Below are positions 25,367 through 54,885 of a stretch of 64,000 bases of DNA, piece by piece (position 1 is the stretch's first letter; each line of letters opens with the position of its first letter). The position numbers were made by a program, and so were the translations under genes. Origin of the DNA: Isoetes taiwanensis (lineage: Eukaryota > Streptophyta > Lycopodiopsida > Isoetales > Isoetaceae); the NCBI GenBank assembly GCA_021234155.1, contig JAJEKV010000013.1, positions 12,178,669 through 12,242,668 of the forward strand, written 5' to 3'. The notes under the pieces are model-generated. The model saw nothing but the letters and a program-made list of their open reading frames with translations. It did not search any database and was not told where the DNA came from.

Positions 25367-25723
25367 GGCCTTTCTCGACTCAGCGAGTCGAGAAAGGCGA
25401 CTCAAAAAAAACACGTGTTTTAGGGGTCCGGAAGGCCTTTTCGACTCGCGAAGTCGAGAAAGGCAGCTAGCGAAAAACACGGGTTTTAGGGTCGAGAAGG
25501 CCTTTTCGACTCGCGAGTCGAGAAAGGCGCTTTCAAAGTTTAAAAACGCGGGTTTTAGGGGTCGAAGGACTTTCGACTTCTCTTGAAGTCGAGAAAGGCG
25601 ATTCAAAGCTAGAAACGCAGTTTTAGGGGTCGAGAGGCCTTTTTCGACTCGCGAGTCGAGAAAGGCGACAAAGCAAAAATGCAAGTTTGAGGGCCTTTTC
25701 GACTCATGAAGTCGAAAAAGGCA
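25367..25723. repeat. Six-copy array of a palindrome, ~66-bp period
   Basis: Palindromic cores start near 25368, 25434, 25499, 25568, 25636 and 25692 (steps of about 66, 65, 69, 68 and 56). Each core is ggc + TTTTCGACTCG + its reverse complement + gcc-like, with small changes at the dyad (agc, aa, tctctt, atg). Linkers are related to each other ('aaaaacgcgggttttaggggtcgagaa'). Each copy can form a stem of about 12-15 bp. No CRISPR significance: eukaryotic context, homologous linkers, no cas genes. Confidence 0.85.
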
Positions 25724-26270
25724 GCTCGTGAGTAAAAAAAGGGCAATTTCAAAGCTCGAGTCAGAAGGTCGAAAATGAATAACCTTCAAACATCCTATGT
25801 ATTTTCTATGAAAAAATACCCTCCCCATAAATTTCCTACGTATTTTCCATGAAAAATAGACCCTCCCCATGTATTATCTAATGGACACATATCCAATGGA
25901 CCCTCCCCCTTTCTAATGGACCATACCATATAGCGCTGGGGACCATTGGGCTCATATTTAGCTATGTAAAGAGTAATGCCTAAATAGCAACATATGCACC
26001 TATAATGCACATTATAACCTATGAGTGCCTATTAGACCTATGCATTAAATCTATTAATATGCATTAGACCTACTAATATGTACTTGTCCCCATTTTGTGT
26101 CTTGAACCTTCAAAATGGGTTAAACAAGGTGTAAATTATATCATGATCTTCGCAAAGTTAAAGAATATATGCCTAGAAAACGTGCACCATGGGAACATAA
26201 TGTTTAACGTGTGAACATAGTAGCACACACATAAAAAGAGGAAATTGGGGACACGTCCTATATTATTAGC

Positions 26271-26454
26271 ATTTATTTTACACTTTCTTTTTCAATGTAT
26301 TATTTTACCCTTTTTTTTTTCTAATACCCCGCCTTTTTTCCCGCCCATGCTTGAATTTTAAAATCATTTATTTTACACTTTCTTTTTCAACATATTATTT
26401 TACCCCTTTTTTTCTAATACCCCGCCTTTTTTTCCGCCCATGCTTGAATTTTAA
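26271..26454. repeat. ~93-bp tandem duplication
   Basis: A unit beginning atttattttacactttc, containing ctaataccccgcc, and ending cccatgcttgaattttaa, occurs twice in tandem. Flanking regions 24830-25366, 25724-26270 and 26455-27430 hold no supported gene. Confidence 0.75.
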
Positions 26455-27473
26455 ACTTTGGTACATATCTTTGAGATAGAAGTTCATTTGTACCGCTTGG
26501 AATAAACTCCCAATGCCATAGCTCCCACCGGCTTGCTAATCAATTTCGGCTTGGCAACCACGAATCCGTTGAAAGGGAAGAAAGGGAATGGCAGAGCGGC
26601 TATCAAATGTAAGCCCCCATTTGGGGAAATTTCGTTCTTGTTGGATTCTTGCCAGCAGGAATAAGTTTGGCCCTTCAATCTCCAATCGCAAGGGAGCAGT
26701 GAGCTTTCTTGTTAGAAAGCTCAAGAAAACAAGAAATCTGTTGATTCCGATGCAGGAAATGGGTAAGAAACGAAGGGGGCAGACGAATCTTTTAACTTCT
26801 TCATTCCTCCATTTCTACTATCCTTGAAGCTCCGTTGGATCTGCAAGCAGCTCAATCAGCAACGTGGAGGGGATCTGCTGATTTTGATCAAAGAAATAGA
26901 CGAACGACAATTGCTAACACCTTGAAGATCTGAAGCCCCAGCGGATCATGCGCTCACCGAATCCGTCGAAAGGGAAAGGCCGGGTTGAATCGACTTGAAT
27001 GAAGACGCTTTGAATCGGCCGCCTGCGGAACGCCATGCAACGGCGAAAAGGGCAAAAAAAAAAAAAAAAATCCGTGAAGGCGTATGTAGTTTTTGAATCG
27101 GGTAGAAGCACTTTGAATTGGCAAAAGCGTACTTTGAATCCAAGAAGGCACCATCTTTGAATTGGCGTAGCGGCATTTTGAATCTTTTAATCGGCGAAGC
27201 TTATAAAAGAAAGTTTCTCTTCATCCGCTTATAATTAGTTAATTAATTATAAGCTTTGTCTACCGCTCGAACCATGGTGGCGTAATCGCGTAACTTAACG
27301 CCATAGCCGGAGCTTGGCTGCCGTAACTTGGGCTCCGCCGAACTAGTCGCTGGGTCGCCGGAGCCGGGAGTTGGGCTGCCATAGCCGAGCTCGGCTGTCA
27401 AAATCAAGGGCGTCACGGAGCCGAGCTTGAGTTGCATCTCCTCCGCCGCTTCCATAGCGGTAACCGGGGCCCG

Positions 27474-27600
27474 AGCTTCAAATCTCTATTGGCTAACGGT
27501 GCAGAGAAGAACGCACGTGATGTATATGGAGCGATGCCCTTTCACTTTGCTGCAAGATGTGGAAATGTGGAAGCAATGAGTATGTTATGTGATTTACCTG
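27474..27600 (+). pseudogene. Ankyrin-repeat gene fragment carried in the 3.6-kb element
   Basis: Plus-strand frame reads SLLANGAEKNARDVYGAMPF followed by HFAARCGNVEAMSMLCDLP. This is one clear ankyrin unit ('D..G.tPlHfAar.Gn.e.m..L') preceded by the end of another ('LLanGA.kna'). It runs into a repeat-derived stretch and then low-complexity sequence. It is probably a captured or residual exon rather than a working gene. Confidence 0.6.
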
Positions 27601-27711
27601 TATCCACGGCATCAGTATCAGTTCCCTCAGGTTATAAGCATCAACTCTACGCTCCATCAAAATTGGAAGCTCCATCAAAATGGTGTTTTCCATCAAAATG
27701 GTGTTTTCCAA

Positions 27712-27733
27712 TTCTCGACTCACTAGTCGAGAA
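27712..27733. repeat. Single copy of the 22-nt palindrome
   Basis: Arms TTCTCGACT and AGTCGAGAA around a CACT centre. Located after three short 'ccatcaaaatggtgttttc'-type repeats, inside the 3.6-kb element. Confidence 0.75.
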
Positions 27734-27749
27734 GAGGAGAATGATTTAT

Positions 27750-27998
27750 ATTTTTTTATTAGTTATTTATTTAATTAAATTAATTAAATTATTGTTAATT
27801 AAATTAATTATTAATTATATTTTGATAATATGTATTTTTAATCTCAATGGATACGTTCCCTTGCCCCTTGCCCCTTCTTCTCCCTTGCCCCCTTCCCCTT
27901 GCCCCTCTTCTCCCTTGCCCCCCTGCCCCCTTGCCCCCTTCTCCCCCCCTTTCTCACTCCCATCTTCCCCTTCCCTCCCCCTTTCGATCTCACCTCGC
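27750..27998. repeat. AT-rich tract then C-rich (CCCTTGC)n tract
   Basis: First a TTAATTAAA-rich stretch (27770-27840), then a strongly strand-asymmetric cccttgccccttctcc repeat (27858-27990). Confidence 0.7.
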
Positions 27999-28087
27999 TC
28001 AACTTTCTGAACTATTTATTTGGAAATTCTGTAAGAAAATATTATGAACCAGTCCTTGTTATATGATGTGAAATTTTGATGTCAATA

Positions 28088-28152
28088 TGAGTCCCATTTT
28101 CAGTCCGAGTCCCAAAATTCAAGATTTGTCCCACTTTAATTAAATACGACTT
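28088..28152 (-). repeat. Terminal region 'A' of the 4-bp-TSD transposon family
   Basis: Reverse-complemented it is the same 65 bases as 42524-42588: TIR, then CAAATCTTGAATTTTGGGAC, TCGGACTGAAAATGGGACTCA. The GGGAC motif repeats three times. Confidence 0.85.
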
Positions 28153-28505
28153 TGAAATTTCTGAAATAGAAAATGTATCGATTTGCATTAATATCATTGT
28201 GAGCAGATAATCAAGTTGTGTTCGTTGTATCCAAGGAAGGCATAGTGAGCTGGTGATGCGGCTGCTTTGCAAGGTTAGTTGACATGCTTCTTTTATTTAT
28301 TATTTCATGTTTGGAAAGGGTAGATGTCTAAGGGTTTAGAGTAGAATCTTATGTTGTGCTTTCTATATTGAGTCAAAGAGTTGTTTGTGTTTTGTCCCAG
28401 TTAAAGAGTCCAATAAACTTGCCTTTAAGTTGTCCTCTACTATACACGTGTCCATGCCAGTCCTTGCCTAAACTTGCTCTAATTTATTTTTCTATTGTCG
28501 TGTAG

Positions 28506-30277: not shown

Positions 30278-31143
30278 TGGGCGTCCCCTACTGTATACGG
30301 TTGCACTCACCGTACACAAACGAGGAGTTCATCCCCCATACCAGCTCCATGCTAATCTGGGGCCCTCCACATGACACCGCAGAACCGTGGCGGGTTCCGA
30401 GTGGGAAGAGTGGAAGGGTCATTGCACCCCGTCTCCCTCGGGGCCTACCTAGCTGCGGAAGCGTAAAACATACATGTCAGTAGCACATACATCAACATCA
30501 TATGACCATCACGAAGGATGGTCCTCCACATATATCTGCATAGACAAAGATCAAAGCACATCACATAGGGAATCCTACCCAAGGCTCGGACTCAAAGGGA
30601 TGACCGGGCTTTGGTCTCGAGTTCAGTTCGTGCATGCAATTCATGGCAATGGATTTGGCTGGCATAAGAACATGGCATAGGGTTGTCCACTCCATCCGCC
30701 CCTCCCGTGCACACTTTGCGAGTAGGTTGAAAAGTGTTGGGACTGATCAGAGCCCCGGATGCATAGCCAAGAAGGCTATATCCCGGGTTACATCTCCCCA
30801 GCCCGATGGGGCGGTAGGGATCTCTCCCTCCAGAGATCTACAATCCGACTCAAGGTGACTAGAGGGCCACCGCCTGCATCAGGACTTGAACTCAATGGAA
30901 GGTTATATTCACTACCTCACGAGTGTCGAGCCCATGCCTTGCCCACACGGTGGCAAGCCATTAGACCTAGTCACAAAGTGACCCCCAGCAGTACTAACAC
31001 ACCATAGGGGTCGATTCAAGAGTCGAACATGAACCTCCTTATAAGCCGGCCCCGCCCCTTCACCCACAACCGGGTGTGGCTCTTGTGCCACCGTGCCGTA
31101 TCTATAGTGTGCTAGAGAGGCTACTCTAGGAGCATCAACTACA
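30278..31143 (-). repeat. 3' LTR
   Basis: Pairs with 39661-40528 over its whole length with scattered indels and substitutions, indicating an old insertion. Shared landmarks include catgacaccgcag, ggaagagtggaagggtcattg and gatggtcctccacatatatctg. Confidence 0.85.
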
Positions 31144-31154
31144 AAGCTTTTAGG

Positions 31155-31170
31155 TCTCTACCCCCTTCCC
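31155..31170 (-). other. Polypurine tract
   Basis: Minus strand GGGAAGGGGGTAGAGA, located 11 bases upstream of the 3' LTR start. This is the usual position for plus-strand priming. Confidence 0.6.
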
Positions 31171-39644: not shown

Positions 39645-39654
39645 GCTCGATACC
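39645..39654 (-). other. Primer-binding site (tRNA-Met type, imperfect)
   Basis: Minus strand GGTATCGAGC, a few bases inside the 5' LTR end (39661). Compared with the common TGGTATCAGAGC it lacks one A. Confidence 0.55.
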
Positions 39655-39660: not shown

Positions 39661-40528
39661 TGGCGTCCCCTACTGTGATCACGGTGCACTCACCGCAGGT
39701 ACACAAACAGAGTTCATCCCCATACCAGCTCCATGCTAATACTGGGCCCCTCCACATGACACCGCAACGTGGCGGGTTCCGGTGGGAAGAGTGGAAGGGT
39801 CATTGCACCCCGTCTCCCTCAGGGCCTACCTAGCTGCGGAAGCGTAAACATACATGTCAGTAGCACATACATCAACATCATATGACCATCACGAAGGATG
39901 GTCCTCCACATATATCTGCATAGACAAAGATCAGCACATCACATAGGGAATCCTACCCAAGGCTCGGACTCAAAGGGATGACCCGGCGGGCTTGGGTCTC
40001 CGTTGAGTTCTTGCGCATTTAATTCATGGCAATGGATTTGGGCTGGCATAAGAACATGGCATAGGGTTGTCCACTCCATCCGCCCCTCATTGCACACTTT
40101 GCGAGTAGGTTGAAAAGTGTTGGGACCCGGATCAGAGCCTCACGGGATGCATAGCCAAGGGGCTATATCCGGGGTTACATCTCCCGCCCGATGGGGCGGT
40201 AGGGATCTCTCCCTCCGTAGATCTACAATGCTGACTCAAGGTGACTAGAGGGCCCCAACGCCCGTATCCGACTTGAACTCAATGGAAGGTTATATTCACT
40301 ACCTCACGAGTGTCGAGCCCATGCCTTGCCCACACGCAGTGGCAAGCCATTAGACCTAGTCACAGTGACCCCCGGCAGTACTAACACACCATAGAGGTCG
40401 TTCAAGAGTCAGAACATGAACCTCCTTATAAGCCAGTCTGGCCCCTTCACCCACAACCAGGTGTGGCTCTTGTGCACAGGCCGCATCTATAGTGTGCTAG
40501 AGAGGCTACTCTAGGAGCATCAACTACA
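39661..40528 (-). repeat. 5' LTR
   Basis: Partner of 30278-31143. Both repeats continue for 7 further shared bases (AAGCTTT) before diverging, so the outer boundary is uncertain by a few bases. Confidence 0.85.
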
Positions 40529-40532
40529 AAGC

Positions 40533-41655
40533 TTTAGATATGGCGAGGAAGGCAGTGAAGGCTGCGCCATGCCCGCCCCCTCCGCCTGCACCCATAGTTT
40601 CTGTAGATGCATCCCCGGATCCCTGCAACTCGGCCACCTCACAGTCCCCCTTGCTAACAATTCAATCCAGGATGCAGTCGGTTTGGTCGGGAGTTACAGT
40701 TACAGCAAATTCGGTGCAGCTTCCTCTGGACAGTTGGGCGCAGGTTCTGGAAATATTGGAGCACTTGATGAAGGAATATATAGGTCACAATAGCTCCCCT
40801 TTGCCACAAGACGGATCTGCACACACCTTGCTTTCGGATGTTGATGTCTGACGAAAGCCATAGAGATACTGCCAGAAATAGCCACGCCCACGGTGCATGT
40901 TGATGCCGCGGCCAGGTGCGAGGCGACAAAGGGAGAGGCCCCATCCATGAATTCGAATGTTCAAGTGCAAAATGCAGCTCAGGAACATGCACAGGAACCA
41001 GCAAGAACGTCTGATGGCACACACATTCCATGTGTGGGCCAGCCTAAGCAGGACCGCTACTTGAACTTGCGTCTAGTAGGCGTCCCAGACATAGCCTCCT
41101 GCTTGGATAGCGAGACTGCTGCACATTTTTTCACGGATATTATGCACATCCAGGAGTCCAGAGCTTTTGGCCTGCCGGTAGGTGCTCATCGGCCGGACCG
41201 GCCACGCCATCTTCTGGTACAATTTTCGTCATCCCAGGACCGGCTATATGTGCTACAGCATGGGAGTCACCTCAAGGGCATTCCCTTTTCGGTCCAGGAA
41301 GACCTCTCCCCAGTTCAATTAACTCGACGGCATGATGAGTTATGTAAGGTCCGAGAGGCGAGGCTCCAAAGAAAATGGATGGTCTATCGGGAAGGTGGCG
41401 CACTTATTCTTGATCAGTGGCCTCAGAATCCCTCGGTAGGTTACGTCTAAGCGCACCAGTAGTTACGTCTAGTCGCTTCTGTCTGGCTCGAGTCTACGTT
41501 TGCTCTGTTCTCATGAATTTTGGCATTGTTTTTGTTCTGCTTGTACTCCATTGTCTATAATGTTTCGGGCTTATGCCCCTTCTTCTGTATTGGGTCCCAT
41601 AACCCGATTGGGTTTCCGAGGACGATAAAATATTTATCTTTATCTTTATCTTCAG
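40533..41655 (+). mobile_element. LINE remnant with ORF1 and 3' tail but no ORF2
   Basis: An ORF1-like frame is followed directly by a LINE 3' UTR (ttgggtcccataacccgatt, ...cgaggacgataaaa) and a (tttatc)n tail. The tail form is the same as that of the other LINE 3' ends here, but the reverse-transcriptase ORF is absent. The left edge abuts the LTR at 40528. Confidence 0.6.
40540..41450 (+). pseudogene. LINE ORF1-like protein, one frameshift
   Basis: Frame 1 (40540-40851) has a proline-rich N-terminus (MARKAVKAAPCPPPPPAP) and a short helical part. After a frame change near 40845 it continues LTKAIEILPEIATPTVHVDA and runs to 41450. The last 130 residues (RYLNLRLVGVPDIA...FGLPVGAHRPDRPRHLLVQF...LSPVQLTRRHDELCKVREARLQRKWMVYREG) have the RRM-like plus C-terminal layout seen in L1-type ORF1 RNA-binding proteins. 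Identification is by layout and by the LINE tail that follows. Confidence 0.5.
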
Positions 41656-41658
41656 GAT

Positions 41659-42523: not shown

Positions 42524-42719
42524 AAGTCGTATTTAATTAAAGTGGGACAAATCTTGAATTTTGGGACTCGGACTGAAAATGGGACTCACACACCATAAAA
42601 AAAAATTCTGAATTGATTGCTTGAATAGAATTACACATCATACACAAAGAATTGGGTTACTTGTTTTCCTCATAAATTTTACAAACCACTAGTTGAGAAA
42701 GTTTTCAAGCTTCTCAATA

Positions 42720-45658
42720 TTATCTACCCTCATACAATGATATAACATGGAGGTTGCTCATGGCTTTGTCCATCTCCCTTTTTGGGATCTTGTGTGTGTT
42801 GTCCTTTGCAGTGTGAGAACTTGGATATGACCATACCACACACTCCACCAATTCCCTCCTTTGAGGATCAGCATAATTTGCCCTCCACTTCTTCTCCCAG
42901 CAGTCGGTGTATTGCTCCTTCAAGTTGCCCTTCTTGTGTCTCCCAATGGGCTCCCAATATTGAATTTGGAATCCAGGACGCAGGCATAGTGGTGGTTACA
43001 TTAGAGAGTGCCACCCCTAACCATATTGGACAGTCCTCATCATCAGGCCTTACTAGCACAAAGTATCCTTCCTTGATGTCCTCAAAGGGATCCCACTCAG
43101 GAAGATCAAACCACTTCGGCTTTGAGGCCTTACTTTCCACAAACCACTTGGAACCCTTGTTAGGACCCAAGTGAACATTCTTAGACGTGCTTGCTCCTTG
43201 AGAACCCTCCCATCTTGACTCTGGCAAGAACCCGTCTCTTAGCTTCCTCCCACATGGTTGTTCAGTTTCTAAGCATGTCACAACCTTCTCCCAGTACTTG
43301 ATTAGGGAGTCCATTTGATTTTTCTTAAGAGTGGAGGTGTGCTTTCCATTTCGAACATCATCCCAAGTCGTTATGTAATCCTTGATGCCCTTCACTAGTT
43401 GGCTAGAGTCTTTGACAGTCTTGAAGGGAGGTAGTGGTTTTGGCTGCCCTTTAGGAATGAGAACTTCACCGGTAAAGCACCCCCTTTGCCACAACTTCGA
43501 TTCCTTGTGAGGCATCCACGACTTGTCACCTGGTCTCCACTTATATTGCATGATTGGTATTCCATCCCTAACCCAAAACTTGAACTGAAGTGACTTTGTG
43601 TGTCCTGTCAACTGGTCCTTACCATCTAGCAAGTATCCCTCTACAAATGATTTCCAATCTGCAACTTCATCCATCAAGAAAGCCATTGGGTTGGGGTCAA
43701 TGCAGCTCTCAAACACATCCATTAGTTCAGGGAGACTAGTCACGTTTTTCTCTCTTGAGCTTGGTGGAGAAAGTTCAAAGAATCAATCTATATCATCATG
43801 CGTATGCCCAACCATCATGAATCCCACTTTCACAACTTTGAATACTCCCCACCTTTGTCAAGTATGACATTGCCCCAAACATCCATCTATTCTTGTTTTC
43901 TTTCCAACAGTTGTCCAATTGAACACATAGCTCCTCAGGCAGTGGTTTCTCAAGTAAGGGAAAATCATCCCAAGTCCTCCTTGATTCACTAGACACCTTG
44001 GATGTGAGCTTTTTTATCTGCCTTTGGTAACAAAGCGGTTGATCATCCATCAAAGCCTCAAAAATGGGTGCTGAAGGGGAATACCTCCTCCCTTCTATCG
44101 ATCATTTCTCTAGTGTTCTCAAGCACTTGAAAATAGAGCCCACATGGAAGTTTGGATCATCCCTCCATAGATCAAGCACAAAATGACCATATGTTCCAGT
44201 TCCATGACCATGTGTTAAGACACCCGCCAGACTTACTTTCATCTGAAAAGCGTTTTGACAACGCTTGGGTAAAGGATCTAGCTTTGGCAAGAAAGTCTTG
44301 TGTTGGTCATCATGAATAATACACAAAAATTTGTCCGGCTACATCTCAGAAAATGTTCTCCACTGTCAATACAACTGTCTACATGATATTTGATCCCTTT
44401 GGTGATCTGCAAATTGCTCCCTAATTGCCATTCTTTCTTTCTCTATTGCAGTTGATGCAAGTATATCCTTGAGTTGAATGCAAGTGTTGCACTTTGAGAA
44501 TGGCATGTGTTGCAGGACACTCACGTCTGAGAAGTGAGTGCTCCATAACTTGCTGAAATGTGATTGAGAAAGAGGCCTACCTCTAGTAGTTTCTAGGATG
44601 GAGTTGACCTCCTTAAGGCACTCCTTTTGGATATAGTGTTGTGGCAACACCCTTTGCACCACTCGCACACCGTGCTCGTTTACCTTCGACTTGTGGGGCA
44701 TAGATTGAGACATGTATCTCACAAAGCTCTCGAAGACTGCAATGGCCTTGAGAGTATTTGCTCTAGGTTTCAAAGTGAGTGCATTACCATGTTGGAACAA
44801 ACTGTGCCCTTTTCTAACCTGCTCCCAGTATCTGTAGAATGAAGACTTGCTCACCCCAAGAATCCATCTCAATGCTCTCATACATACCTTCATGCCCCTC
44901 AATTGATATAGTAGCCTTCCTGTGTTTTCATCATAGCTGGAATTCCTACACAAGGAGTAGATGAAATTAATCCTATCTTTTTGAAGCTGTCCAATGTATT
45001 GGGACCTTATCTGCACGAGGTCGTCCACACTGTACTGCACTGTGCAATCTAGGTTGCAACACTCTTGTCCCCTAATTGCCTCTAGGTTTTCGTTGGTTGG
45101 GGCCATACTTTCCATCCTTTCTAAATATTTGTCACTTCTAGGCCTCTTGGGCACCCGTGGATGCCTTTTATGAAAAACATAGCGTCTCTTCCTTGTGATC
45201 AAAGGATGCTCATCGACCACCAAATCTTCCACATGGCCTTGGGTGGGCCTTGGGGTATGTAGTTCAGTAGGGCATTCCAGACTATCACCATTCTTGTATG
45301 TAATATATCTAATTGGCCATCTCAACTGAGTTTGGGACTCCAGCAACCTAGAGCACACAATGCAATCACTAGAGCTTCCCTGGGACATGATTGTATCAAC
45401 TTCGATAAGAAGCTTCACAATGCCAACTCCAAGATGATCATCTCCTAGCCTTTCATCATTCACACTATCAAAAGGATCAACTGCAGTTATTATGCCCTCT
45501 GCAAATACCGTCTCGTTGCAAGGGTGCAACAACAAGCAACCCATCTTCCTCCATTGGAGCCTAGGGCAATGGCCTGTGCTGGGCTTCCTTGGCTCCATTT
45601 TGCTCATCTCACATGCTCCCTGAATGAAAGAGCACACATTAAAACCATATACAACCAT
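42720..45658 (-). pseudogene. Transposase of the 13.26-kb element (D...DN....NKN...GHTHDDID type)
   Basis: Minus strand, about 900 codons. The N-terminal part (45658-44366) has a conserved helical block ALRWILGVSKSSFYRYW (HTH-like) and Cys pairs (CCNLDC; MPFSKCNTCIQLK). The same frame continues past stops (TGA 44366-44368, then a TAG a few codons on) to CIIHDDQHKTFLPKL (44320-44301) and LTHGHGTGTYGHF. After a TGA at 44102 comes VQLDNCWKENKNRWMF (43920-43881). A one-base shift near 43835 leads to VGFMMVGHTHDDID, then a TGA and LPELMDVF... A further shift near 42905 gives the C-terminal YTDCWEKKWRANYADPQ. The three acidic motifs suit a DDD-type catalytic core. Several stops stand where CGA/CAG would fit. 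It would mobilise both family members, but this copy is dead unless edited or misassembled. An upstream intron acceptor (ttcattcag|GGAGC at about 45619) is possible. Confidence 0.75.
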
Positions 45659-45880
45659 ATATGAATGAGCACTATAGCCATATAACCATTAGAAACCATA
45701 TAACCATTAAAAACCATTGAAATCTTGGCTAACATTAACCATTAAGAAGCATTAAAACATTATAACCTTATAACCATTAAAAACATTAAAACTTTTAACA
45801 CTAACATTTAACATTAAAACATTTAACATTAACCATTAAAAAGCATTAAAACATTATAACCATTAAAACATTGGCTTCCC
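45620..45880. repeat. AT-rich (accattaaaaacatt)n low-complexity tract
   Basis: Irregular repeats of accattaaaaac and attaaaacattataacc. It may lie in the first intron or promoter region of the minus-strand transposase. Confidence 0.65.
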
Positions 45881-45895
45881 CGAATTCATGGTGTC

Positions 45896-46246
45896 TTGGC
45901 GTGGCGCCGTCGGCGCACATCGACATGGCCCGCGTCAACAATCCGGTCGCGGATGGCATGCCCACGCTGGCGTGACTCTAGGAGTGTCATAAATGCCACT
46001 TTTTCGAGGTTCGAGGATGCAGCCCGAAATAACTACACCCTCTACCTCTTCTCCGCGACCCTATTCCTTCCATTCCTCTTTGTCTTCCCTGTTCCAAGAC
46101 TCGTGGCGCTTTGTTCCCCTGTTCGCCTTTGGCACTCGATCGTGAGGCATTTCCGGGCAATCTTAGCGGATCGCGACGCATCCGGTGACGAGGTTTTGGC
46201 TCAATTTGAGTTAGCCAGTGAAAAGTACTTCCTAAGAAGAAAGTGA
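45896..46246 (+). CDS. Unrecognised 116-codon ORF with a hydrophobic segment
   Basis: Open from ATG 45896 to 46246. The N-terminus is Arg/Trp-rich, followed by YTLYLFSATLFLPFLFVFPV, which could span a membrane, and a more polar C-terminus (DRDASGDEVLAQFELASEKY). A donor-like cgtaag follows the stop. No family recognised; could be chance or an exon of a larger gene. The following 46247-46847 is T-rich and featureless. Confidence 0.25.
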   Translation: MAWRRRRTSTWPASTIRSRMACPRWRDSRSVINATFSRFEDAARNNYTLYLFSATLFLPFLFVFPVPRLVALCSPVRLWHSIVRHFRAILADRDASGDEVLAQFELASEKYFLRRK

Positions 46247-46847
46247 GAAACCTTTTACGTAAGTTTTTTTATATTCTTATCTTTGCTTGTTTATTGTTTT
46301 TGCAATTCCTTTACTCTTGTCTTTGCTCCTATTATTTTTTAGAGGCTCTTTATATACCACGATACATTTTCCCATGTTCAAACCGACAAATCCTTACTCT
46401 CGCTTTGCAAGCCTTTGTAGCAAAATAGAATCGAACTTCTGCTGACTTCCTCCTCATCCAACAAATCTCGGTATTTTTTTTTTTTTTTCTCAATATTTTT
46501 CTCATTTGTCTGCTTTGTTTCAAAGGCGCTTCCTTTGCTTTCCTTTTGATTTGCTTTCTGATTTTGTGCTTTCTTGTGTTTAGTTGTTGTTTACTTGAAT
46601 ACCTTGTACTGAGGGCATCGGTGTTCTTAGATGCTAATAGTAGTGGCAAGCACCCGACTTAGGAATCCTGAGAGATATGAAGAAAAGTATTGCATAAAAG
46701 TAAGAGAACTGTCTATGATTCATAAAAGAACATAACTATACATGAAATTGCTTTACAGAAACTTAAAATAGGAATTACCATACAGATTGAAAATTTCACT
46801 CACAGCATATCCTCCTTTGTAGGAGAGGTGCATAAGGGAACCTGGCT

Positions 46848-47009
46848 TTCTCGACTGGCGAGTTGGGAATCCCTCAGCTTGCCAACAATCAAGAAAGGGC
46901 CTTATTCTCGACTTCATGAAGTCGAACTTCGACTTCGCGAGGCGAGAACAGGGAATGTACACTCTGGATTGTTGGCTGGTTGAGGGATTCCCGACTCGCC
47001 AGTCGAGAA
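46848..47009. repeat. Long inverted repeat (43-bp arms) with palindromes at its ends
   Basis: Left arm 46848-46890 and right arm 46967-47009 are reverse complements with about four mismatches, enclosing 76 bases that contain further TCGAC/GTCGA half-sites. It could form a hairpin of about 40 bp. The outer tips of the arms are the palindrome half-site TTCTCGACT. Confidence 0.8.
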
Positions 47010-47126
47010 TAACGCCATTCTTGCATTCTCGACTCGCGAGTTGAGAATGTCATACCTAGCCAATGCCCCTAACCTGTCGACAACACCTGCTAATCTCACA
47101 CACACCAGTGCCGGCTCTAGTGCGCC

Positions 47127-49080
47127 ACTCTCCTTCAAACTATCTTGCTCGGATATTGCGAAGGGAAGTGGCTTTTTCGATCACCGCAGGCCTCGGCCAA
47201 TGACCAATTCTCCGGTGGTATGGTCGCAAAGGGCCTCTACCCGCCGAGATCGTCTCCTTCGAACCATCTTCGTCGAATATTGCGAAGGGGATGGGCTCGG
47301 ACTGGGTGGAGGCCTCTACAACTAACCACAGGGAAACCACAGAGCTTGCTGTCTGCATTCTCGCTCCTTGATCGAGAATGCCCTAACCACCAAAGACTCC
47401 ATGTGTACTATTCGAGTTCTCGATGGCTAAGGCATTCTCGACTTGCCAGTGAAATCACGGCAACAACCAACACTTGCATTCTCGACTTCGCCGTCCCGAG
47501 AATCATAACTCACCAATTCTCACATGCATGGTGATGGCCTCCCACCGGTCGAGCCACTCTCCTTGAACCATCTTACCGTGGTGAATATTGCGGGGAGGGA
47601 GGCTGGGCTGATGGGACCTCTACAACAACCCGCGGGGAAACCCGAGCTTGCTGTCTGCATTCTCGGCTGTGAGTAGAATGCCTAAACTCCAACCAACCTC
47701 CCATGTGTACTATATCGGGGTTCACCGATGGCTAGGCATTCTCGACTTGCGAGTGGGAATGCGAAAAGAAAACCAACACTTGCATTCACCGACTGCGCGA
47801 AGTCGAGGAATCCCTTAACCAATTCCAATTCTCCCCTTAATTATGGTGGCCCTGCGACCGGTCGAGCCCTCTCGCCCGAACCATCTTAAACCGAATATTG
47901 CGAAGGGAGGGGCTGGTTGGGTGGGCCTCTAACTAACCCGTGGAAACCACTGAAGCAGCCGTCAAGATTCTCGGCCACAGCCCAGAATGCCTAAAACTGT
48001 ACCAACACTCCATGTACTATCCGGAGTTCTCGATATATAATTTCTAATTTCAAGTAGCCTATAATGCGTAGAGGAAGTTAACACTTGCATCTCTCATCAT
48101 AGTCGAGAATCCTTTACAACTACTCCTCTGCGGTATGGACGTTAGTGGGTCTTCTATTCCGCCAGTCACTCTCCTTCGAACCATCTTCGCTGAATATTGC
48201 GAAGGGAGGGGTCGGATTGGGTGGGAGGCCTCTACAACTAACCATTGAGAAACCACTGAGTTGTCTGCATTCTCGGCTCAAGAGTCGAGAATGCCTTAAA
48301 CCGATCAACACTCCATGTGTACTATCCGAGTTCTCATTGGCTAAGGCATTCTCGACTTCATGGTCGAGAATGCAGAGAGGAAGCCAACATACATTCTCGA
48401 CTCTAAGTCGAGAATCCTTAACAAACCAATTCTCCTCATTGTATGGTCGCGGTTGGCCTGATTTCCGTCAGAGCCACTCTCCTTCTAACCATCTTCGTCG
48501 AATATTGCGAAGGGGAGGGGCTCGGACTGGGTGGAGGCCTCTACAACTAACCACAGGGAAACCACTGAGGGGTGAAAGCATGCTAGGGTGTACCATCTAA
48601 AGTTCTTTTTAGGGAGTGCAAAACTACCCAGAAAAGTACCCAGTACTGGGTACTGGGAACTTGCATAAATGTCTCAATAAGCAATAAGTTTGAGTGTTGA
48701 TTCATTCATTTTAATCTTTAATAGTATTGTTACCCACTAATACTATAGATTAACATGTTATTGACCTTCAATCCAAAATTTTTTAATTGATTTTAATGGG
48801 AAGAAAAAACAAAAAGTACCAGTTTTAAAAGTACCCAGTGGTGGTACTTTTGAGGGTTCCAAAAGTGGTACACCGTAGCATGCTTTCACCCTGAGCTTGT
48901 CTGCAGGCCTTTGGGTCTTAGCACAGGCCTCTACAACTAAGCACTTTGTATTCTCCTGTTTTTAGTCCCAAGTGCCTCTAGCCTGTCTGAGCCACTCTCC
49001 TTCGAACCATCTTCCTCGAATATTGCGAGGAGTGGTTCCGACTGGGTGGAGGCCTCTCCGACTAACCACAGGAGGATGCA
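47127..49080. repeat. ~305-bp tandem satellite carrying the palindrome
   Basis: The landmark ccactctccttcgaaccatc followed by gaatattgcgaagg recurs near 47251, 47553, 47866, 48165, 48473 and 48991, with a partial copy at 47127. Steps are about 302, 313, 299, 308 and 518; the last is enlarged by the MITE at 48570-48891. Each unit holds up to three palindrome sites, for example 48269-48294, 48347-48373 and 48392-48415. Copies differ by many small indels. No coding frame is conserved between units, so the open frames here are incidental. Confidence 0.8.
48570..48891. mobile_element. 322-bp MITE with 26-bp TIRs and 4-bp TSD
   Basis: It starts GGGTGAAAGCATGCTAGGGTG and ends with its reverse complement (one mismatch in 26). 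TGAG flanks both sides (48566-48569 and 48892-48895). Sibling satellite units read 'accactgag|ttgtctgc' without it, giving the empty site. The interior repeats gtacccagt/agtactgggtac, and it has no gene. Confidence 0.9.
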
Positions 49081-49184
49081 TTTGAACCGCATCTCCAGGG
49101 CCTTAGACCTAGCCTGATCTATATACAACATTCGAAGAAAACATTCCAAGATAAAACACACCTAAAACTGAACTACAAAATAAC

Positions 49185-49520
49185 CTACACAAAATAACAG
49201 GCATCTCTGAAACTCACCTCTTCACGCAGTAATTCCTTGGGCCATTGTATGACAGACCCCGCAGCTTCACCGAGAGTCTTTGCTTCTTCTGTCGGTCTCA
49301 TCAAGAGTGCACTCGCATCTAACACTTGTATCAATGCGATTCTCGTGTATCCCCGTTCCATGGCGCTGCAGTGTAGCATTCCCGTGCCTGGCAGCTCCTC
49401 TCCGCTTGCTACCTTAACTCTGTGCTCATCGATCAAATCAACTACTTGCAATAAGACGCGCGGTTAGAAAAAATACACAGAGCAAGGCGCTGTGAGGAGC
49501 TTACCGCGTCGTGGCGCCAT
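49185..49520 (-). CDS. Small two-exon ORF, ankyrin-like
   Basis: The exon 1 coding part is only 16 nt (49520-49505, ATGGCGCCACGACGCG). It is followed by a GT donor and an acceptor (attgcaag, AG at 49446-49445), then exon 2 at 49444-49185. Joined it is 92 codons including the stop, in phase. The protein reads VVDLIDEHRVKVASGEELPG then TGMLHCSAMERGYTRIALIQVL, resembling an ankyrin unit ('G..lH.sa..g...ia..ll'). It is divergent from the cargo gene starting near 49701, so the two may share a promoter. The short first exon is a prediction only. Confidence 0.4.
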
Positions 49521-49700
49521 TCCAAAAGTCGCTTACAGTCGATGCTCGCCTCCCAACTCTAAGTCGCCAATGCCGCAGTGAAGATAAGCTACACTGCGCT
49601 CACTAAGTCCCTGGATGTGATTCAATTTCGAAATGGTGTTTGGGCGGGCTAAAGCCGACCGTGCTGTACCCTTAGCCCGCTTTTTTTCTTAAATGATTGT

Positions 49701-52700
49701 ATGTCCTTAAATTCAAATTTAAGAACACGCCCGACCTTTTTTACTTGCAGTCCTAAAACCTCCAACGCGCGGAGGAGGCTTAATTTACAGAAGGGTTCGA
49801 GCAGGAAGAAGATGCGGGGGCATACAGACATGACGACTCCGTCCAAGAAGCGAGGCGCCGGAGCGGAAGCTGGTTCTAGCGGCAGCAAGAGGAAAAAGAC
49901 AGGCGCTCTAGGTGAGCTCTGAGGTTTTTCTTTGGTCGGAATACCTTTACTGATCCATCCTTTGGAAGTGCAGCATTCACCGCGGACTCACTAGTGATCA
50001 CTGGCCGAACTCCGTTCTTCGTCATCGAGGGATTGGAGACAGAGCTTCTTGACACACCAGCAGATTCTTGGTGGTATGTCGAGGTATCAACAAGTGGGAA
50101 GGAGAAAGATCTGTTTCTCCACCAAAGGGATAAGAAGAGCTCCGGAGACAAGTACAAGAAGGTCGGCGTTGTGCTCTCCGTCTCTGCGCCAGATTCGAAG
50201 CATCTAACAATGTATGTGGAAGACTGCCAGAAGAGTAAGTTCTACCACACCAAGAAATTATCAGTTTCAAATTATTCTCACTCTTCAATGAGCAAGGCGA
50301 AGGGCACCGACAAAAGGCCGGCGCCTTTAAACTGTCAGAACCTTGGGTGGAAGGATCTGGAAAGGATGAAGGAGGCCGGAACCCTAACATCCAGGGAGCT
50401 TGGAATGGAGATTTCCAGAGTCAGGGAAAAACTGTTCAACACGGGGAGCTTCACTTCCAGTGCGCTGAAGACTCTACAGCATTCGGCAGTTACAAGGGAA
50501 GTTGTGGTTCATAAAGAAAAATCTCCGGACAGGACCTCAGATGCAGATGATATCACACGAGAGGAATCAGATGATGAAGCAGACGAAGATATGGTCGACT
50601 CCCCATTAATGGATCCAGATGAGCAGATCAGGATTTCACAGAGAGGGGCAATGTAAAATGGAGCGGCTAACCCGCTCAAGATATATCGATTGGGAATATC
50701 ACACAAGCTGCTGCTGGACATCAGACGCCTGAAGGTTTGCACCGGAGAAGCCGTCTTGTTCAACCACAGGGAATTTAATCCAGCACACATGCTGGAGATT
50801 CTGAACCTGATGGTGCGACATCCTGTTGCAGATCCAATGCCTGCGGATGTCATACCTTTCGCCAGAATCGACCCGGTCGGTTGTTGTTGGTGGAAGTCCG
50901 AGGAAGAGCCGGAAGGAAAAGACGTCCGGTTACGGGTAGTAGACGGTCAAGATTCGGAGAGCGCGGCGCAAGTATTGCGCACGGAGAAGGAGGTGCCGCA
51001 AGGATCAGGATAGATATGCCAAGCGAGTCGCGAGTTCTTTCGGCGGAGGCGCCCAAAGAACCGAGTTGGCCAAGATTATGCTGCGCGAACACAATAGCGG
51101 TGAGTGCCGGTTACATAAGGTAAATAACTCTCGATTCGGTGGTTTTTCGATTTCGCGAGTGAAAGCCCTAGCATCCTATCATTTTCTTTTTTTTCACTGG
51201 GGTTTTCGACTCCAGTCGAGAAAGCCGCGGAAACACTGAAAAATCAAAGGATGCGGAGCTTTTCGACTTCGAGTCGAAAAAACAAGTAAAAAGAAATGGA
51301 CATTAAAGGGACTTTTCGACTGTGAAGTCGAGAAACCCGAAGGCGATAAAGAATATTCGAGATTAATGGTCGAATTTACCGAAAGCATCGAGCCTTCCCA
51401 TCCTTTCTTCCTCGGCCTCTTTGGGCAATGTCGCTTAGTTTCTATTCTAAGTTGCATCGTTCGAAGAGGCGCGGCAAGAAAGGATTTGGGAATGAGCAGT
51501 GCTTTCACTCTGGCCTTCACTCTCGCACCATGTTCTCTCCTCTCCCAAGGGTATTCTCGACTCGCGAGTCGAGAAAGTCCCTTGAATAGAAACCTCTCAC
51601 TTTCTCGACTCGCGAGTCGAGAAACCCAAGGGTAAAAGAGAGAACATTGGAGATTAATGGCTGAAGAGCAAAAGCATCGAGCTTTCTCAATCTTTCTTTC
51701 CCCGCCTCTTCGGGCAATGTCGCTTAGTTTATATCCTAAGTTGCATCGTTCGAAGAGGCGTGAAAGCAAAAATTTGGGAATGCGCGATGCTTTCGCTCTG
51801 GCCTTGATTCTCCTATGTTTTCTCCTCTCCTTGAGGGTATTCTCGACTCGCGAGTCGAGAAACCCCCTGCATCCTCCTATTTAGTGTTTACTTCCATGCT
51901 CTAACATTGGGACATTTACTGAATGCAGCCCGTATCCTGACCAGATCATACACGCTCGGCAACATTGGAAAGCATTGGGTTGTCCTCAGCGTCCTAAAGG
52001 AAACAGGGCTCCCTCGGATAAGTGGAAGACCTTTGAGTCACTCTGCAGATACTTTTCTTTGGAAGGCCGTGAAGATGATGAGGGGAGGATGAAGAGGAAA
52101 AGAAGAAGAGAACACCAAGAAAGGGCGGGGAGTCTCTCTCGGACCAATATGACCTCATTCTTAGCACCGATGCGATTCCGGGAGAAATGGGTGAGATATG
52201 GGCTCAATGGACAAGAGGCAAAGTTTGAAGGACAGCAATGGAGAATTTCCATGCAGGCGGACCCAAAGTTGTTCGACGGGCAATTTATGAAAAGGATATA
52301 GGGCCGGACCGACAAGGAAACGCTTGATCTAGGCGAGAATCACGGATGGAACAATCCTACTAAGGAAAAGTAGAAGCTCAAAAATGCGGGGCGCAAAAGG
52401 ATTATGCCAGTCCTAAAAAGAGGCGGCGTGCGTTGGAAGAAGGCATCATCACGGAGTTACTGCAATGTTGCTTCCAATGAATACCACGACTTTGATTATT
52501 ACAAGGAAAATTTGCCCTTGATGAGGAAGACATGAAGGAATTGAACCGTCTATGTCAACCCCTACATCAACACAAGCTAAAGCGTAGCGTCAAAACCCTT
52601 CCCTTCCACGAGCGTGCTATGGCAATTCTGAAGAGGAAGCTTGGATTGGGGGTGGTCCCATTTAAGGTAGATGATAGCTCCCCTCCATTTTACGGTAACA

Positions 52701-53519
52701 TTGGGACACAAGGGATTTGGTGGTGCGGGCTGGCACGGGGGCCCGGCACTATTTGTCATCAACATGATCGAAGACCCCACCCTTTTTTATGACAAAGTGA
52801 CATAGAGCCTTTGGTACAAGACGTGTCTGGACATGACCGACCTGGATACTTTCAGTTTCCTTGTCTTTTACATGGCGGGCAATGGGACAACCGCTTTTGT
52901 CTCCCAATGGGCGGTGATATTAACTTCACCAACAAGATCTTGTACTCCATATCGAACTTGAACATGAGTGTAGACTTGGCTTGCCGAAGGCACCAAGCTT
53001 TTGCCAATATAGTTTTGGTTTTGGTTTCAAGATCGGTGTAGACTGGACAAGTGGTGGTCTAGCGAACATCATTATCTCGGACAGGTTCATGATTTCGCAA
53101 GAGCAGATGGAACCCTGGAAGGGCGACAGATTTATGGAGGATGTGCCATCGATGGACAAAGTCAGCAATGATGGTGCGACAGGTCCTATACATAGAATTC
53201 CTATCCGGCCAAGAGTTATCAAGTACTTCATAACCGGCTTGGTGAGGAAGATCAAATTGTATCGCGAGTGGTACATGAATGGCTGTTCTCTCGGGGGCTA
53301 TATCCGTGGTTGGAAATAAGGACATGGTTGAAACCATTCGGTCATACACGGATGCGCTTCATGAGCATTTCAAAGGGAGGAAGACAAATGGAAGCGATGG
53401 GGCGATGATGACGAAGACAAACACGAGAGCGAAGGAGAGAAACATGGCGAAGAAGAGAATGTCGAAGGTTTAGACCCGAATCTTTGCTTGGAACTAATTC
53501 TTGAGAATCTGAGATTGAG
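49701..53519 (+). pseudogene. Cargo gene, N-terminal and central part with ParB-like segment
   Basis: Exon 1 runs from ATG 49701 (or 49812) to 49911. A 62-nt intron (49912-49973; G|GTGAGC...GTGCAG|C) joins in phase to exon 2 (49974-51099). After a basic and then acidic region, TAA at 50654-50656 interrupts the frame. The same frame continues NPLKIYRLGISHKLLLDIRR, FNHREFNPAHMLEIL, ADVIPFARIDP and LRVVDGQDSESAAQVL. This resembles ParB/sulfiredoxin-like domains ('R.f.p.h...l...m', then '.vVdGqHr..Aa..l'); the H of GQH is D here. A frame change near 51005 leads to RYAKRVASSFGGGAQRTELA and a donor at 51100. The next exon starts at 51929 (YPDQIIHARQHWKALGCPQR). Later blocks include GGPALFVINMIEDPTLFYDK and MAGNGTTAFVSQW. 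It joins in phase to the HAD exon at 53650. Domain naming is by eye. Confidence 0.45.
51100..51928 (+). other. Intron of the cargo gene containing six palindromes
   Basis: GT at 51100 and AG at 51927-51928. Inside are three degenerate palindromes at about 51203, 51262 and 51311 (step about 55) and three perfect or near-perfect ones at 51552-51573, 51602-51623 and 51840-51861. A 291-bp segment is duplicated in tandem (gagattaatgg at 51359 and 51650; shared gggcaatgtcgcttagttt and aagttgcatcgttcgaagag), each copy ending with a palindrome. Confidence 0.6.
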
Positions 53520-53649
53520 GTGAGTTCTTGCTCTCTCGGTGTTTCTCGACTCGCGAGTCAAGAAACCTTTCGGGACTAACTTTTTTTTCCATTCTCGACT
53601 CGCGAGTCGAGAAAACTCGTTTCCTATCTGACATCTCTCATCATTTCAG
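53520..53649 (+). other. 130-nt intron with two palindromes
   Basis: It begins GTGAGTTC and ends CATTTCAG. The flanking exons join as ...ENLRL-R-EIEVND..., phase 2, with both frames open. Palindromes at 53543-53564 (one mismatch) and 53592-53613 (perfect) fill a third of its length. Confidence 0.75.
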
Positions 53650-54499
53650 GGAGATCGAAGTCAACGACTCCGGATCATTGACAATATCTAGTGGCGGTTC
53701 ACGTCGCGAGGAGGACAATGCACTCCCCAAAGACAATCAAGAGCAAGACACTGCGGGCAGCCAGAAAGGAGCTAACAAAATAATGATCCCGCATATAGAT
53801 CCCGATGAACCGGAAATATGGTCAGAGCCAAACTCCAACTGGGATCCAGCTGGTCCAACCAAGCTTGTAATATTTGACGTCAATGGAGTATTAGCTGCAG
53901 TATACCATGATAAAGACGTTCCTGAGCTTAACACCTCGCAGATCCCGACGAAGACGGAGCATAAAATCGTCTATCCGAGGCCTAGAGCAAAGGAAATTGT
54001 TGAATGGTGCCTGGAATGGGGATTCGAAGTGGCCATATGATCTTGTATGGCAAAGAAAAATATTGTCAATTTTCTTGGTGTTCTCGGCCTTCCAGTTTTG
54101 AAGTTCAAGTTTGTTTGGGGAAGCGAAAGGGTCGAGCATGTGTCAGACCTCGATCCAGCCATCACAAAGGGGAAGCATATTATGGTGAAAAGGCTGGACA
54201 TGGTTTATGAACAATTCCCGGACTATGGCAAACACAACACGCTGATCATAGACGACTCCGCCTACAAGTGCTATCATAACTCGCAAAATACAATCATTGC
54301 TAAGACTTATCGACCAGAAGAGTATGAGATGGATAGGTGGCTGTCTTTCGGACTTTGTCCTATCTTGGCAGAATCCCTCTTTGCCATTCGTGTGGCCGAT
54401 GTGATTACGAACTATCCGAGCCTCAAGGAACCCGATCCAGAGAGCCGCGCGATCATGAAAGCTATGGACGACAAATATTTTGGTGATCAAGAAGAGTGA
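53650..54499 (+). pseudogene. FCP1/HAD-like phosphatase domain, C-terminal part of the cargo gene
   Basis: It continues in phase from the exon ending at 53519. After an acidic linker, the domain begins PTKLVIFDVNGVLAAVYHD (HAD motif I; the second Asp of DxDxT is Asn, DVNG). It continues RAKEIVEWCLEWGFEVAI and, after an in-frame TGA at 54038-54040 where Trp is usual, SCMAKKNIVNFL. Next are the Lys region (GKHIMVKRL) and HAD motif IV NTLIIDDSAYK. FCP1/NIF-type enzymes remove phosphates from Ser/Thr residues, notably the Pol II tail. Plants have a DxNG subgroup of unclear activity. The frame ends at TGA 54497-54499. One nonsense codon means this copy is probably inactive, or the base is wrong. 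Confidence 0.7.
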
Positions 54500-54603
54500 C
54501 CTCTGCTTTCAGATAGTCAAATTGTGTGAATATTGTAAAGAAACGTGAAGAAATGTACTATGTTTTGTAATGAATATACATGTATATTGATTTTTCGCTG
54601 GCT

Positions 54604-54885
54604 TTCTCGACTCGCGAGTCGAGAAAGACATGCTTGTCCTGTTGATGAAACCATTTGTATGTTTGTTTGTGTGACTGGATGCAGCCGTAATCTATTATGA
54701 TAATGGTTGTACATTGGGTTTCCTGGGCCTTTCTCGACTCGCGAGTCGAGAAAGGCACTGCTTGTCTCGTTGACGCAACCATTTGTATGCTTCCATGTGT
54801 GATTGAATGCAACCATATTCTAATGGGAATGGTTGTACTTTGACTTTTCCGGGCCTTTCTCGACTGCGAAAGAGAAAGACTACTT
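54604..54885 (+). repeat. ~127-bp tandem repeat with palindromes, downstream of HAD frame
   Basis: Palindromes at 54604-54625 and 54731-54752 are perfect, and one at about 54857-54877 is degenerate. The linkers match each other (gaaaccatttgtatg, gtgtgattggatgcaaccg, gataatggttgtac). It lies in the 3' UTR or intergenic space of the cargo gene. Confidence 0.85.

Follow-up and report, generated by a model that had tools for sequence, protein, structure and literature searches.

A 22-bp palindrome of one DNA transposon family in Isoetes taiwanensis: a putative family-specific protein-binding site

A stretch of 64,000 nucleotides from the lycophyte Isoetes taiwanensis (the window) contains two related transposons that carry many copies of a 22-bp palindrome. 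What is the palindrome for? Four roles had been offered in a preliminary description: a protein-binding site, a hairpin in RNA, a replication or segregation signal, or a selfish micro-repeat. On balance we favor the first, which fits best, while the selfish micro-repeat and the RNA hairpin are disfavored; in what we examined, there was no support for a replication or segregation signal.

Two elements and the layout of their palindromes

The two elements, A and B, are DNA transposons in opposite orientation. They have a common 25-bp terminal repeat and distinct L and R ends (Table 1). The terminal sequence of family elements is AAGTCGTATTTAATTAAAGTGGGAC or close to that. Among seven elements whose flanks we examined, the 4-bp target duplication is exact in four (A, L004, L011, and L021); in L022, the 4 bp match only after a one-base shift, and in B and L005, 3 of 4 bases match. 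We also considered that 24571-55781 might be one nested element. We rejected this, since 28152 and 42524 are both R ends, each of a separate element.

Table 1. Features of elements A and B in the window.
Feature	Position	Strand	Remarks
Element A, 3,582 bp, without transposase ORF	24571..28152	+	L end 24571, R end 28152; TGAA on either side (4-bp target duplication)
L-type end of A	24571..24809	+	90% identical to L end of B
Half-site in L end of A	24731-24741		1 mismatch
L-side array of A	25372..25718		Palindromes at 25372, 25438, 25503, 25570 (8-nt centre), 25641, 25696; 66/138-bp units
R-side single palindrome of A	27712..27733		Centre CACT; 419 bp from R end; ~125 bp past end of ankyrin-repeat match
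R-type end of A	28088..28152	-	100% identical to R end of B
Element B, 13,258 bp, with transposase-like ORFs	42524..55781	-	R end 42524, L end 55781; flanks CGCA/CACA (3/4 bases match)
R-type end of B	42524..42588	+
Transposase-like coding region, several ORFs	42868..45688	-	DUF7869 matches
Palindromes of B	46848..48414		46848, 46905 (degenerate), 46988, 47026, 48270, 48349, 48394, and decayed copies; ~308-bp units; between transposase ORFs (-) and next ORF group (+)
Second ORF group	49653..51013	+	Pfam: nothing above cut-off in two pieces scanned
Palindromes of B	51203..51861		51203, 51260, 51313, 51554, 51602, 51840; ~289-bp tandem units, palindromes at unit edges
Apparent GT-AG intron (130 bp), inferred from sequence	53520-53649		Before NIF-like ORFs
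Palindromes of B	53543..53613		53543 and 53592; inside the apparent intron
NIF/FCP1-like phosphatase ORFs	53780..54499	+	NIF 22.8 bits (cut-off 21.8) in 54041-54496
Palindromes of B	54604..54876		54604, 54731, decayed 54857; 127/128-bp units, downstream of NIF-like ORFs; 0.9-1.2 kb from L end
L-type end of B	55544..55781	-
Half-site in L end of B	55612-55622		Exact 11-nt
Exact 22-mer copies	51554, 51602, 51840, 53592, 54604, 54731		Strict search of window

In the transposase-like region of B, DUF7869 scored 38.7 bits (above the cut-off) in the piece 43799-44101 and 21.4 bits (below the cut-off of 26) in the piece 42871-43782. With the 440-aa transposase ORF as the query, a search for related proteins gave 2089 candidates, none of them at E = 0.001 or better. 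AlphaFold predictions from single sequences for two of B's ORFs had mean pLDDT of 33 and 43, which is too low for interpretation. When we scanned for codon-phased substitution between copies, 53820-54059, within the stretch of the NIF-like ORFs, alone passed the threshold. On the cargo side of its R-side palindrome, element A has an ORF that matches ankyrin repeats.

The preliminary description counted more than twenty copies of the palindrome and placed all full copies within 24571-28152 or 42524-55781. These ranges are exactly elements A and B, as bounded by the 25-bp terminal repeat. The count is true only if the centre is allowed to vary, since a strict search of the 64-kb window for the 22-mer gives too few copies: 6 exact, 10 with at most 1 mismatch, 12 with at most 2, and 14 with at most 3. 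(Across 100 dinucleotide-preserving shuffles of the window, the strict search found zero matches.) With a relaxed definition (9-nt arms with at most 2 mismatches in total, around a centre of 2-8 nt), there are 7 palindromes in A, 16 in B, and none in the remaining 47,160 bases; as a control, one was found in 1 of 20 Markov-randomised A+B sequences. The 11-nt half-site, with at most 1 mismatch, occurs 37 times in the window versus 0.49 expected. Local tandem duplication, in units of 66/138, 127/128, ~289, and ~308 bp, gives part of this multiplicity. The surroundings of the clusters do differ, as had been claimed: A and B align at their ends and palindromes, and beyond these there are two weak matches, one of 49 columns (E = 0.001) and one of 61 (E = 0.003).

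Across the family, the layout is regular. An array of palindromes lies 0.5-1.3 kb inside the L end. Of the 11 R-ended elements that we fetched, 9 have a single R-side palindrome at a distance of 419-693 bp from that end, with neighbouring sequence that is little alike. A half-site with at most 1 mismatch is present in 17 of 22 L ends, at 157-180 bp inward, and in 0 of 11 R ends (counts corrected for a mis-sorted end and a chance match); in the other 5 L ends, it is absent or has at least 2 mismatches. In element B, no R-side palindrome was found within 4.3 kb of the R end, and there are additional palindromes in interior noncoding sequence. Most of B's palindromes are 2-9 kb from the ends, which is too distant for end recognition to be their sole role.

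Distribution across the genome

In the 1.658-Gb assembly, we found 10,135 places with the palindrome (at most 2 mismatches), as compared to 0 for a reversed control, and we detected 3,370 terminal repeats. An equal density of palindromes outside the family would speak against a link to these elements. In our sample, 28 of the 29 palindrome loci that we fetched are family members, as judged from an end or from sequence similarity beyond the palindromes, versus 0 of 20 control stretches (50 kb) with the palindrome and 0 with family sequence. The exception, L023, resembles A's array only. Furthermore, among 50 perfect-arm sites listed, 27 are faced by an exact terminal 25-mer no more than 13.3 kb away, while ~2.7% would be expected by chance. 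When we picked 9 facing pairs of ends by the ends alone (contigs C1-C33), 3 of them (C16:327873, C22:321970, and C26:159643), all 11-12 kb, were without a listed perfect-arm site with a 4-nt centre, which counts against the protein-site reading given below. Exact searches gave 0 matches to the 22-mer in GTDB genomes and 0 matches to its 20-nt core in IMG/VR. Within this sample, the palindrome is restricted to one transposon family.

With over 10,000 near-copies in several flank contexts, the palindrome might be a very small mobile element in its own right, which prefers to insert into this transposon family. But there was no clean empty site among 50 aligned comparisons (which include the decayed site at 54857, and in which sites at alignment breaks are outside view). 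Where the palindrome is absent, there are deletions within it (L016 at 53592 and L010 at 54731). Also, palindrome positions are common to different elements, and all but one of the loci belong to one family. We consider a selfish micro-repeat to be very improbable. In particular, an autonomous micro-repeat or tiny MITE was rejected, as clean empty sites with a target duplication were not found in the 50 comparisons.

Conservation of the arms and what it suggests

The palindrome itself had been suggested to be what is conserved or propagated. Between copies, 3.9% of arm positions changed, as compared to 14.5% in the flanks and 22% in the centre (identical positions, with gaps set aside, were 1128/1174, 2642/3090, and 189/243, and 5152/5671 in the NIF-like ORF stretch), and because all loci were picked for an exact copy, the conservation of the arms might be overstated. 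Without the aligned pairs whose copy holds the exact 22-mer, identical positions were 769/810 in the arms, 2296/2703 in the flanks, and 116/167 in the centre. CpG was retained at 231/241 positions in the arms versus 103/135 in the flanks. The centre is 4 nt long in 61 of 72 perfect-arm palindromes, or in 41 of 52 when we leave out the 20 seed copies that had served to choose the loci. (For the identity and CpG comparisons, for the distances to ends, and for the arm-pair changes below, the B set omits the decayed sites 46905 and 54857.) The arms are conserved over the flanks and the centre, which favors constraint on a palindrome that goes with elements with these terminal repeats.

The palindrome changed less than the surrounding DNA and lies at set places, so most likely a protein that the element needs docks there. 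We lean towards a cis-acting site that is specific to this DNA transposon family and is bound by a protein. The putative site would be two-fold symmetric and would serve its own element in cis, comparable to the sites of TnpA or VANC. From its layout, we infer that the array near the L end, the R-side site, and the half-site in the L end would allow a protein, perhaps encoded by the element, to find the two ends of a copy, whether autonomous or shortened. Through the intergenic sites and those in the apparent intron, the same protein may regulate the element's own genes or chromatin. The protein could be a transposition cofactor, a repressor, or an anti-silencing factor.

The evidence for constraint is silent on which protein binds, so a host protein might bind the site instead, or the site might have been co-opted for silencing. 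However, there are 0 palindromes in the 50 kb controls and in the 47 kb of window sequence that belongs to neither element, so there is no sign there of host regulatory use, and we consider a host protein to be improbable.

Alternatively, the palindrome could work as a hairpin, either as a cruciform or single-stranded DNA stem (during excision or repair) or as an RNA stem in transcripts (such as a small-RNA signal or a processing signal). Four copies that we folded as DNA all form the stem, with -10.4 and -14 kcal/mol for 30 nt and -7.7 and -8.2 for 22 nt, and these were equalled by 1, 0, 5, and 0 of 200 shuffles. The flanks lengthen the stem with sequences that differ by cluster: none of 500 shuffles attained the within-copy complementarity that the flanks show at offsets 1 and 3 (ignoring kinship), and other offsets gave a weaker signal or none. 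At the R-side site, 5 of 9 copies, some of them related, have a symmetric change in both arms. And in 236 pooled dyads, which admitted up to 5 arm mismatches so that some are chance, double arm changes exceed independence, most strongly at position 7 (10 versus 3.9 expected) and to a lesser extent at positions 3, 6, and 8. However, comparing B to its relatives, a compensatory change kept the pairing in just 1 of 42 changed arm pairs. (Of 40 one-sided arm changes, 11 mend a pair that is broken in B, as expected from either reversion to the consensus or pairing.) At arm position 3, T:G and C:A were seen 36 and 26 times, which is not a clear strand bias; perfect arms mostly have a 4-nt centre, while a loop needs no fixed length; and Rfam at gathering scores gave 0 matches. 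We consider a hairpin to be unlikely, and a conserved RNA hairpin is disfavored.

The symmetric changes at the R-side site and the pairing of flanks at offsets 1 and 3 go beyond what a plain protein site requires.

We also considered that the palindromes are hotspots for recombination or template switching, which would set the edges of the tandem units and of the captured cargo, and that repeated exchange conserves them. When B is aligned to its relatives, 14 of 54 breakpoints are within 12 bp of a palindrome, and such zones make up 9.9% of the region; after merging breakpoints, it is 9 of 41 (binomial P ~0.017). Palindromes form the edges of the units at 51313-51840, and the sequence on the cargo side of R-side sites is largely unrelated between elements. 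But alignment ends are attracted to any 22-mer in common, and a hotspot leaves unexplained the regular spacing from the ends and the conservation of sites outside tandem units. Hotspots seem quite unlikely to us.

More speculatively, and we consider this unlikely as a whole, a lycophyte transposon that is neither Mutator nor CACTA may have its own dense, element-restricted palindrome code and its own anti-silencing or transposition factor, with palindromes that double as exchange joints for tandem units and captured host genes. The code would have evolved independently and would consist of the 22-bp palindrome at either end, in intergenic sequence, and in the intron.

The palindrome is also a short, testable piece of DNA with which to probe for the binding protein. 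Together, the 25-bp end and the 22-bp palindrome are an annotation handle for a family whose detectable ends number 3,370 in this genome. In a limited search of the literature, we found no paper with the 22-mer and none that joins Isoetes, palindromes, and transposons.

Comparison with known systems

Sola transposons have 4-bp target duplications. Our family is a candidate for Sola-type or other DUF7869-bearing DNA transposons, with its 4-bp target duplication (exact in 4 of 7) and its transposase-like region, where DUF7869 matches one piece above the cut-off and one below. VANDAL MULEs with VANC, a protein that removes methylation at motif-bearing copies, have a Mutator-type transposase and 9-bp target duplications, while these elements have DUF7869 and 4-bp duplications; the VANDAL terminal repeat is not the same either. 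REP-type repeats are short palindromes with many copies in the extragenic regions of prokaryotic genomes, as described in an excerpt of PMC3733652, whereas the palindromes here sit inside one transposon family.

In En/Spm (CACTA) elements, an element-encoded protein, TnpA, binds subterminal repeats and is required for transposition (PMC2613891, in part). As in our family, a short repeated motif lies near both ends, differs between the two, and is kept in non-autonomous copies (same excerpt). However, the family ends here are AAGTCGTATTTAATT rather than CACTA; the target duplication is 4 bp instead of 3 bp; the motif is a 22-bp palindrome, which is also intergenic and in an apparent intron; and a TnpA-like protein was not found. 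In Arabidopsis, the anti-silencing protein VANC21 of VANDAL21 has the motif YAGTATTAY, which occurs in noncoding repeats and introns (PMC5735166, in part). Similarly, that motif is restricted to its family, has a high density in noncoding tandem repeats, in introns, and in sequence upstream of genes, and turns over as repeats are gained and lost (PMC5735166; PMC10398659; both in part). But VANC21 sites, as given in these excerpts, are 9 bp and in a single orientation, while the site here is palindromic. In flowering plants, CACTA and VANDAL transposons are known to contain repeated recognition motifs (excerpts of PMC2613891 and PMC5735166). A palindromic version, with thousands of copies, in a DUF7869-bearing lycophyte element would point to more than one origin of this strategy.

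Restriction to a transposon family

The 22-mer TTCTCGACTCGCGAGTCGAGAA occurs six times exactly in the window and 14 times with up to 3 mismatches. The preliminary description held that the palindrome is confined to the window's two related DNA transposons, A (3,582 bp, without a transposase ORF) and B (13,258 bp, with transposase-like ORFs). This was borne out: with 9-nt arms (up to 2 mismatches in total) and a variable centre of 2-8 nt, we found 7 palindromes in A, 16 in B, and none in the remaining 47 kb. The window also contains a TORTIFOLIA1-type plant gene and a reverse transcriptase (RVT_1) ORF (10371-11003, minus strand). Between A and B are direct repeats (30401-31150 and 39782-40535), about 9.38 kb apart and 92-100% identical in pieces, which resemble those of a large retroelement or a duplication.

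Across the assembly (1,658,258,908 bp in 1110 contigs; the window is C941:12178669-12242668), the palindrome was found at 10,135 places with up to 2 mismatches, and perfect arms with any 4-nt centre were found at 6,563 places (controls: 0 for both). We fetched 29 clusters of exact copies, which were all of those among the matches listed: 20 ten-kb loci, and 9 shorter loci that formed an out-of-sample set. In the first set, the terminal 25-mer of A and B was present in 17 of 20 loci at up to 4 mismatches (13 at up to 2). Of the three loci without it, two (L016 and L019) are similar to B along long stretches, and the third, L023, is similar only to A's palindrome array with its spacers. In the second set, four of the nine loci have the 25-mer. 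The other five are similar to B: four show 78-87% identity across 1.3-3.1 kb, and L024 shows 70% across 0.7 kb. Given these similarities to the ends or to B beyond the palindromes themselves, 28 of the 29 loci belong to the family. The palindrome was not seen at equal density outside the family, the outcome named beforehand as contradicting its confinement: 20 evenly spaced 2.5-kb stretches of C941 (all from this one contig, and smaller than the test loci) had no palindromes, terminal repeats, or similarity to A or B.

Furthermore, 27 of the 50 perfect-arm sites listed for contigs C1-C35 have an exact 25-mer no more than 13.3 kb away, with the site on its inner side (about 2.7% expected by chance). 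When facing end pairs on C1-C33 were picked by their ends alone, six of nine enclosed a perfect-arm site among those listed. The other three, all 11-12 kb, had none among the sites listed, which counts against restriction to the family; these long elements could carry a different recognition motif.

Features of the elements (window positions unless a contig is named)
Feature	Location	Strand	Remarks
Element A	24571-28152		terminal 25-mer AAGTCGTATTTAATTAAAGTGGGAC
Element B	42524-55781		terminal 25-mer AAGTCGTATTTAATTAAAGTGGGAC
Transposase-like gene in pieces	42868-45688	-	in B; DUF7869 match
NIF/FCP1-like phosphatase ORFs	53780-54499	+	in B
ORF with ankyrin-repeat match	27327-28010	+	in A
Long element	C16:327873-339935		exact terminal 25-mers, no listed perfect-arm palindrome
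Long element	C22:321970-334031		exact terminal 25-mers, no listed perfect-arm palindrome
Long element	C26:159643-170631		exact terminal 25-mers, no listed perfect-arm palindrome

Ends of the elements and placement of the sites

B's right end resembles A's left end (90% across 240 aligned columns) and B's left end is identical to A's right end across 65 bp, so A and B are in opposite orientations and have distinct L and R ends. Beyond the ends, they align only at the palindromes and in two weak matches, one of 49 columns (E = 0.001) and one of 61 (E = 0.003). Directly outside B's L end are Helitron-type helicase ORFs (56606-59523, plus strand). Exact 4-bp target duplications flank four of the seven elements with printed flanks (A, TGAA; L004, ACAG; L011, AATG; L021, GTTT). 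L022 has TAAA if its end is shifted by one base, and in B and L005 three of the four flanking bases agree. Genome-wide, the terminal 25-mer occurs at 1,661 + 1,709 = 3,370 places with up to 2 mismatches (control: 0). Facing end pairs (n = 26, chosen by eye among the first 100 matches listed) have two sizes, 3.5-5.8 kb (12 pairs) and 11.0-14.8 kb (14 pairs). At least one of the longest, the 14.6-kb pair on C10, encloses further ends (L007) and hence more than one element.

All seven complete short elements examined (A, L004, L005, L006, L011, L021, L022) have an L-side array of 3 to 7 sites (up to 3 arm mismatches), located 547-1285 bp in from the L end, plus a single site on the other side, 419-693 bp in from the R end; L021 has an additional near-palindrome at 167. 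The R-side site is present in 9/9 elements tested (these seven, L009, and L013), or in 9/11 if we count L007 and B, whose nearest sites are about 2.7 kb and 4.3 kb from the R end. Among R-side sites, the arms agree at 588/648 bases and the 60-bp flanks at 2734/3580 aligned bases (54% of the alignment length). Five of the nine (L004, L005, L006, L011, L013) have both arms altered symmetrically (TTCTCGCC.../...GGCGAGA), which sets them apart from the L-side array. Most copies also have the 11-nt half-site CGAGTCGAGAA 157-180 bp inside the L end. With up to 1 mismatch, it is found in 17/22 L ends (all except L005, L006, L014, L018, L029) and 0/11 R ends, counting L031 as an L end and leaving out a chance match at 5733; it is exact in 10 of the 21 L ends in the set before L031. 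In one subfamily (L012, L018, L021, L030), the half-site lies within a near-palindrome.

In B, other sites are found between divergent ORF groups and within 289-bp units; some lie in an apparent intron (53520-53649), and others past the NIF-like ORFs. Repeats of about 308 bp between the divergent ORF groups (47877-48569) contain up to three palindromes each, many of them decayed. At 53820-54059, substitutions between copies of the NIF/FCP1-like ORFs are codon-phased (chi2 = 32.6), as if the element has retained a gene. A's ankyrin-match ORF is apparently a captured fragment, and the match stops about 125 bp short of the R-side palindrome.

Conservation of the arms

To compare arms and centres, a check suggested in the preliminary description, we aligned B's 16 palindromes to 14 related loci (omitting decayed palindromes at 46905 and 54857; L024 gave no palindrome positions). 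Setting gaps aside, substitutions were found at 46/1174 arm positions, 54/243 centre positions, 448/3090 positions in the 30-bp flanks, and 4388/38966 positions elsewhere in 46800-55500. CpG was kept at 231/241 sites in arms versus 103/135 in flanks. If gaps (90 in arms, 156 in flanks) are counted as mismatches, identity is 89% versus 81%. Arms were more conserved than flanks in 12 of 13 loci with data; the exception, L010, has 5 arm positions. Because every aligned locus was selected for an exact copy, we dropped pairs with the exact 22-mer in the copy and recomputed: 769/810 arm, 116/167 centre, and 2296/2703 flank positions were identical. Another version (7 loci, 17 sites) in which gaps counted as mismatches gave arm, centre, and flank identities of 788/897, 127/177, and 2203/2700. 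Perfect arms surround a 4-nt centre in 61/72 cases (41/52 without the 20 seed copies), and the centre is looser where the arms are looser.

In 542 arm pairs compared between B and its relatives, 40 had one-sided changes (11 of which restore a pair broken in B) and two had changed on both sides, with one still paired. As the sequence is constrained more than the pairing, the centre is usually 4 bp, and the sites are regularly placed at both ends, these results point to a putative symmetric protein site that is needed in cis. There are also hints of a hairpin, alone or beside protein binding: complementarity of the flanks exceeds that of shuffles at offsets 1 and 3 (0/500 shuffles), the symmetric arm change recurs among R-side sites (related copies included), and double changes in pooled dyads exceed expectation at arm position 7. 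All three could reflect a structural or templated process. Breakpoints between copies lie near palindromes more often than expected (14/54, or 9/41 after merging), which hints at a role in recombination, again alone or beside protein binding.

Proposed role and known parallels

The data show restriction to the family in our sample, a regular layout, and conserved arms; from these we infer that a protein, which the element itself may encode, would bind the palindrome in cis near both ends and have an effect on the element. Excision alone would not account for B's interior sites, as these are too distant from the ends; a VANC-like regulator would use such sites. The DUF7869 region and the 4-bp target duplication would fit more than one superfamily. 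Judging by its ends and target duplication, which differ from those of En/Spm (CACTA) and of VANDAL elements, the family is neither. The closest working models are En/Spm TnpA, which binds subterminal repeats acting as cis-determinants of excision (PMC2613891), and VANC21, which binds a short motif packed into VANDAL21's introns, upstream regions, and noncoding repeats and lifts silencing (PMC5735166).
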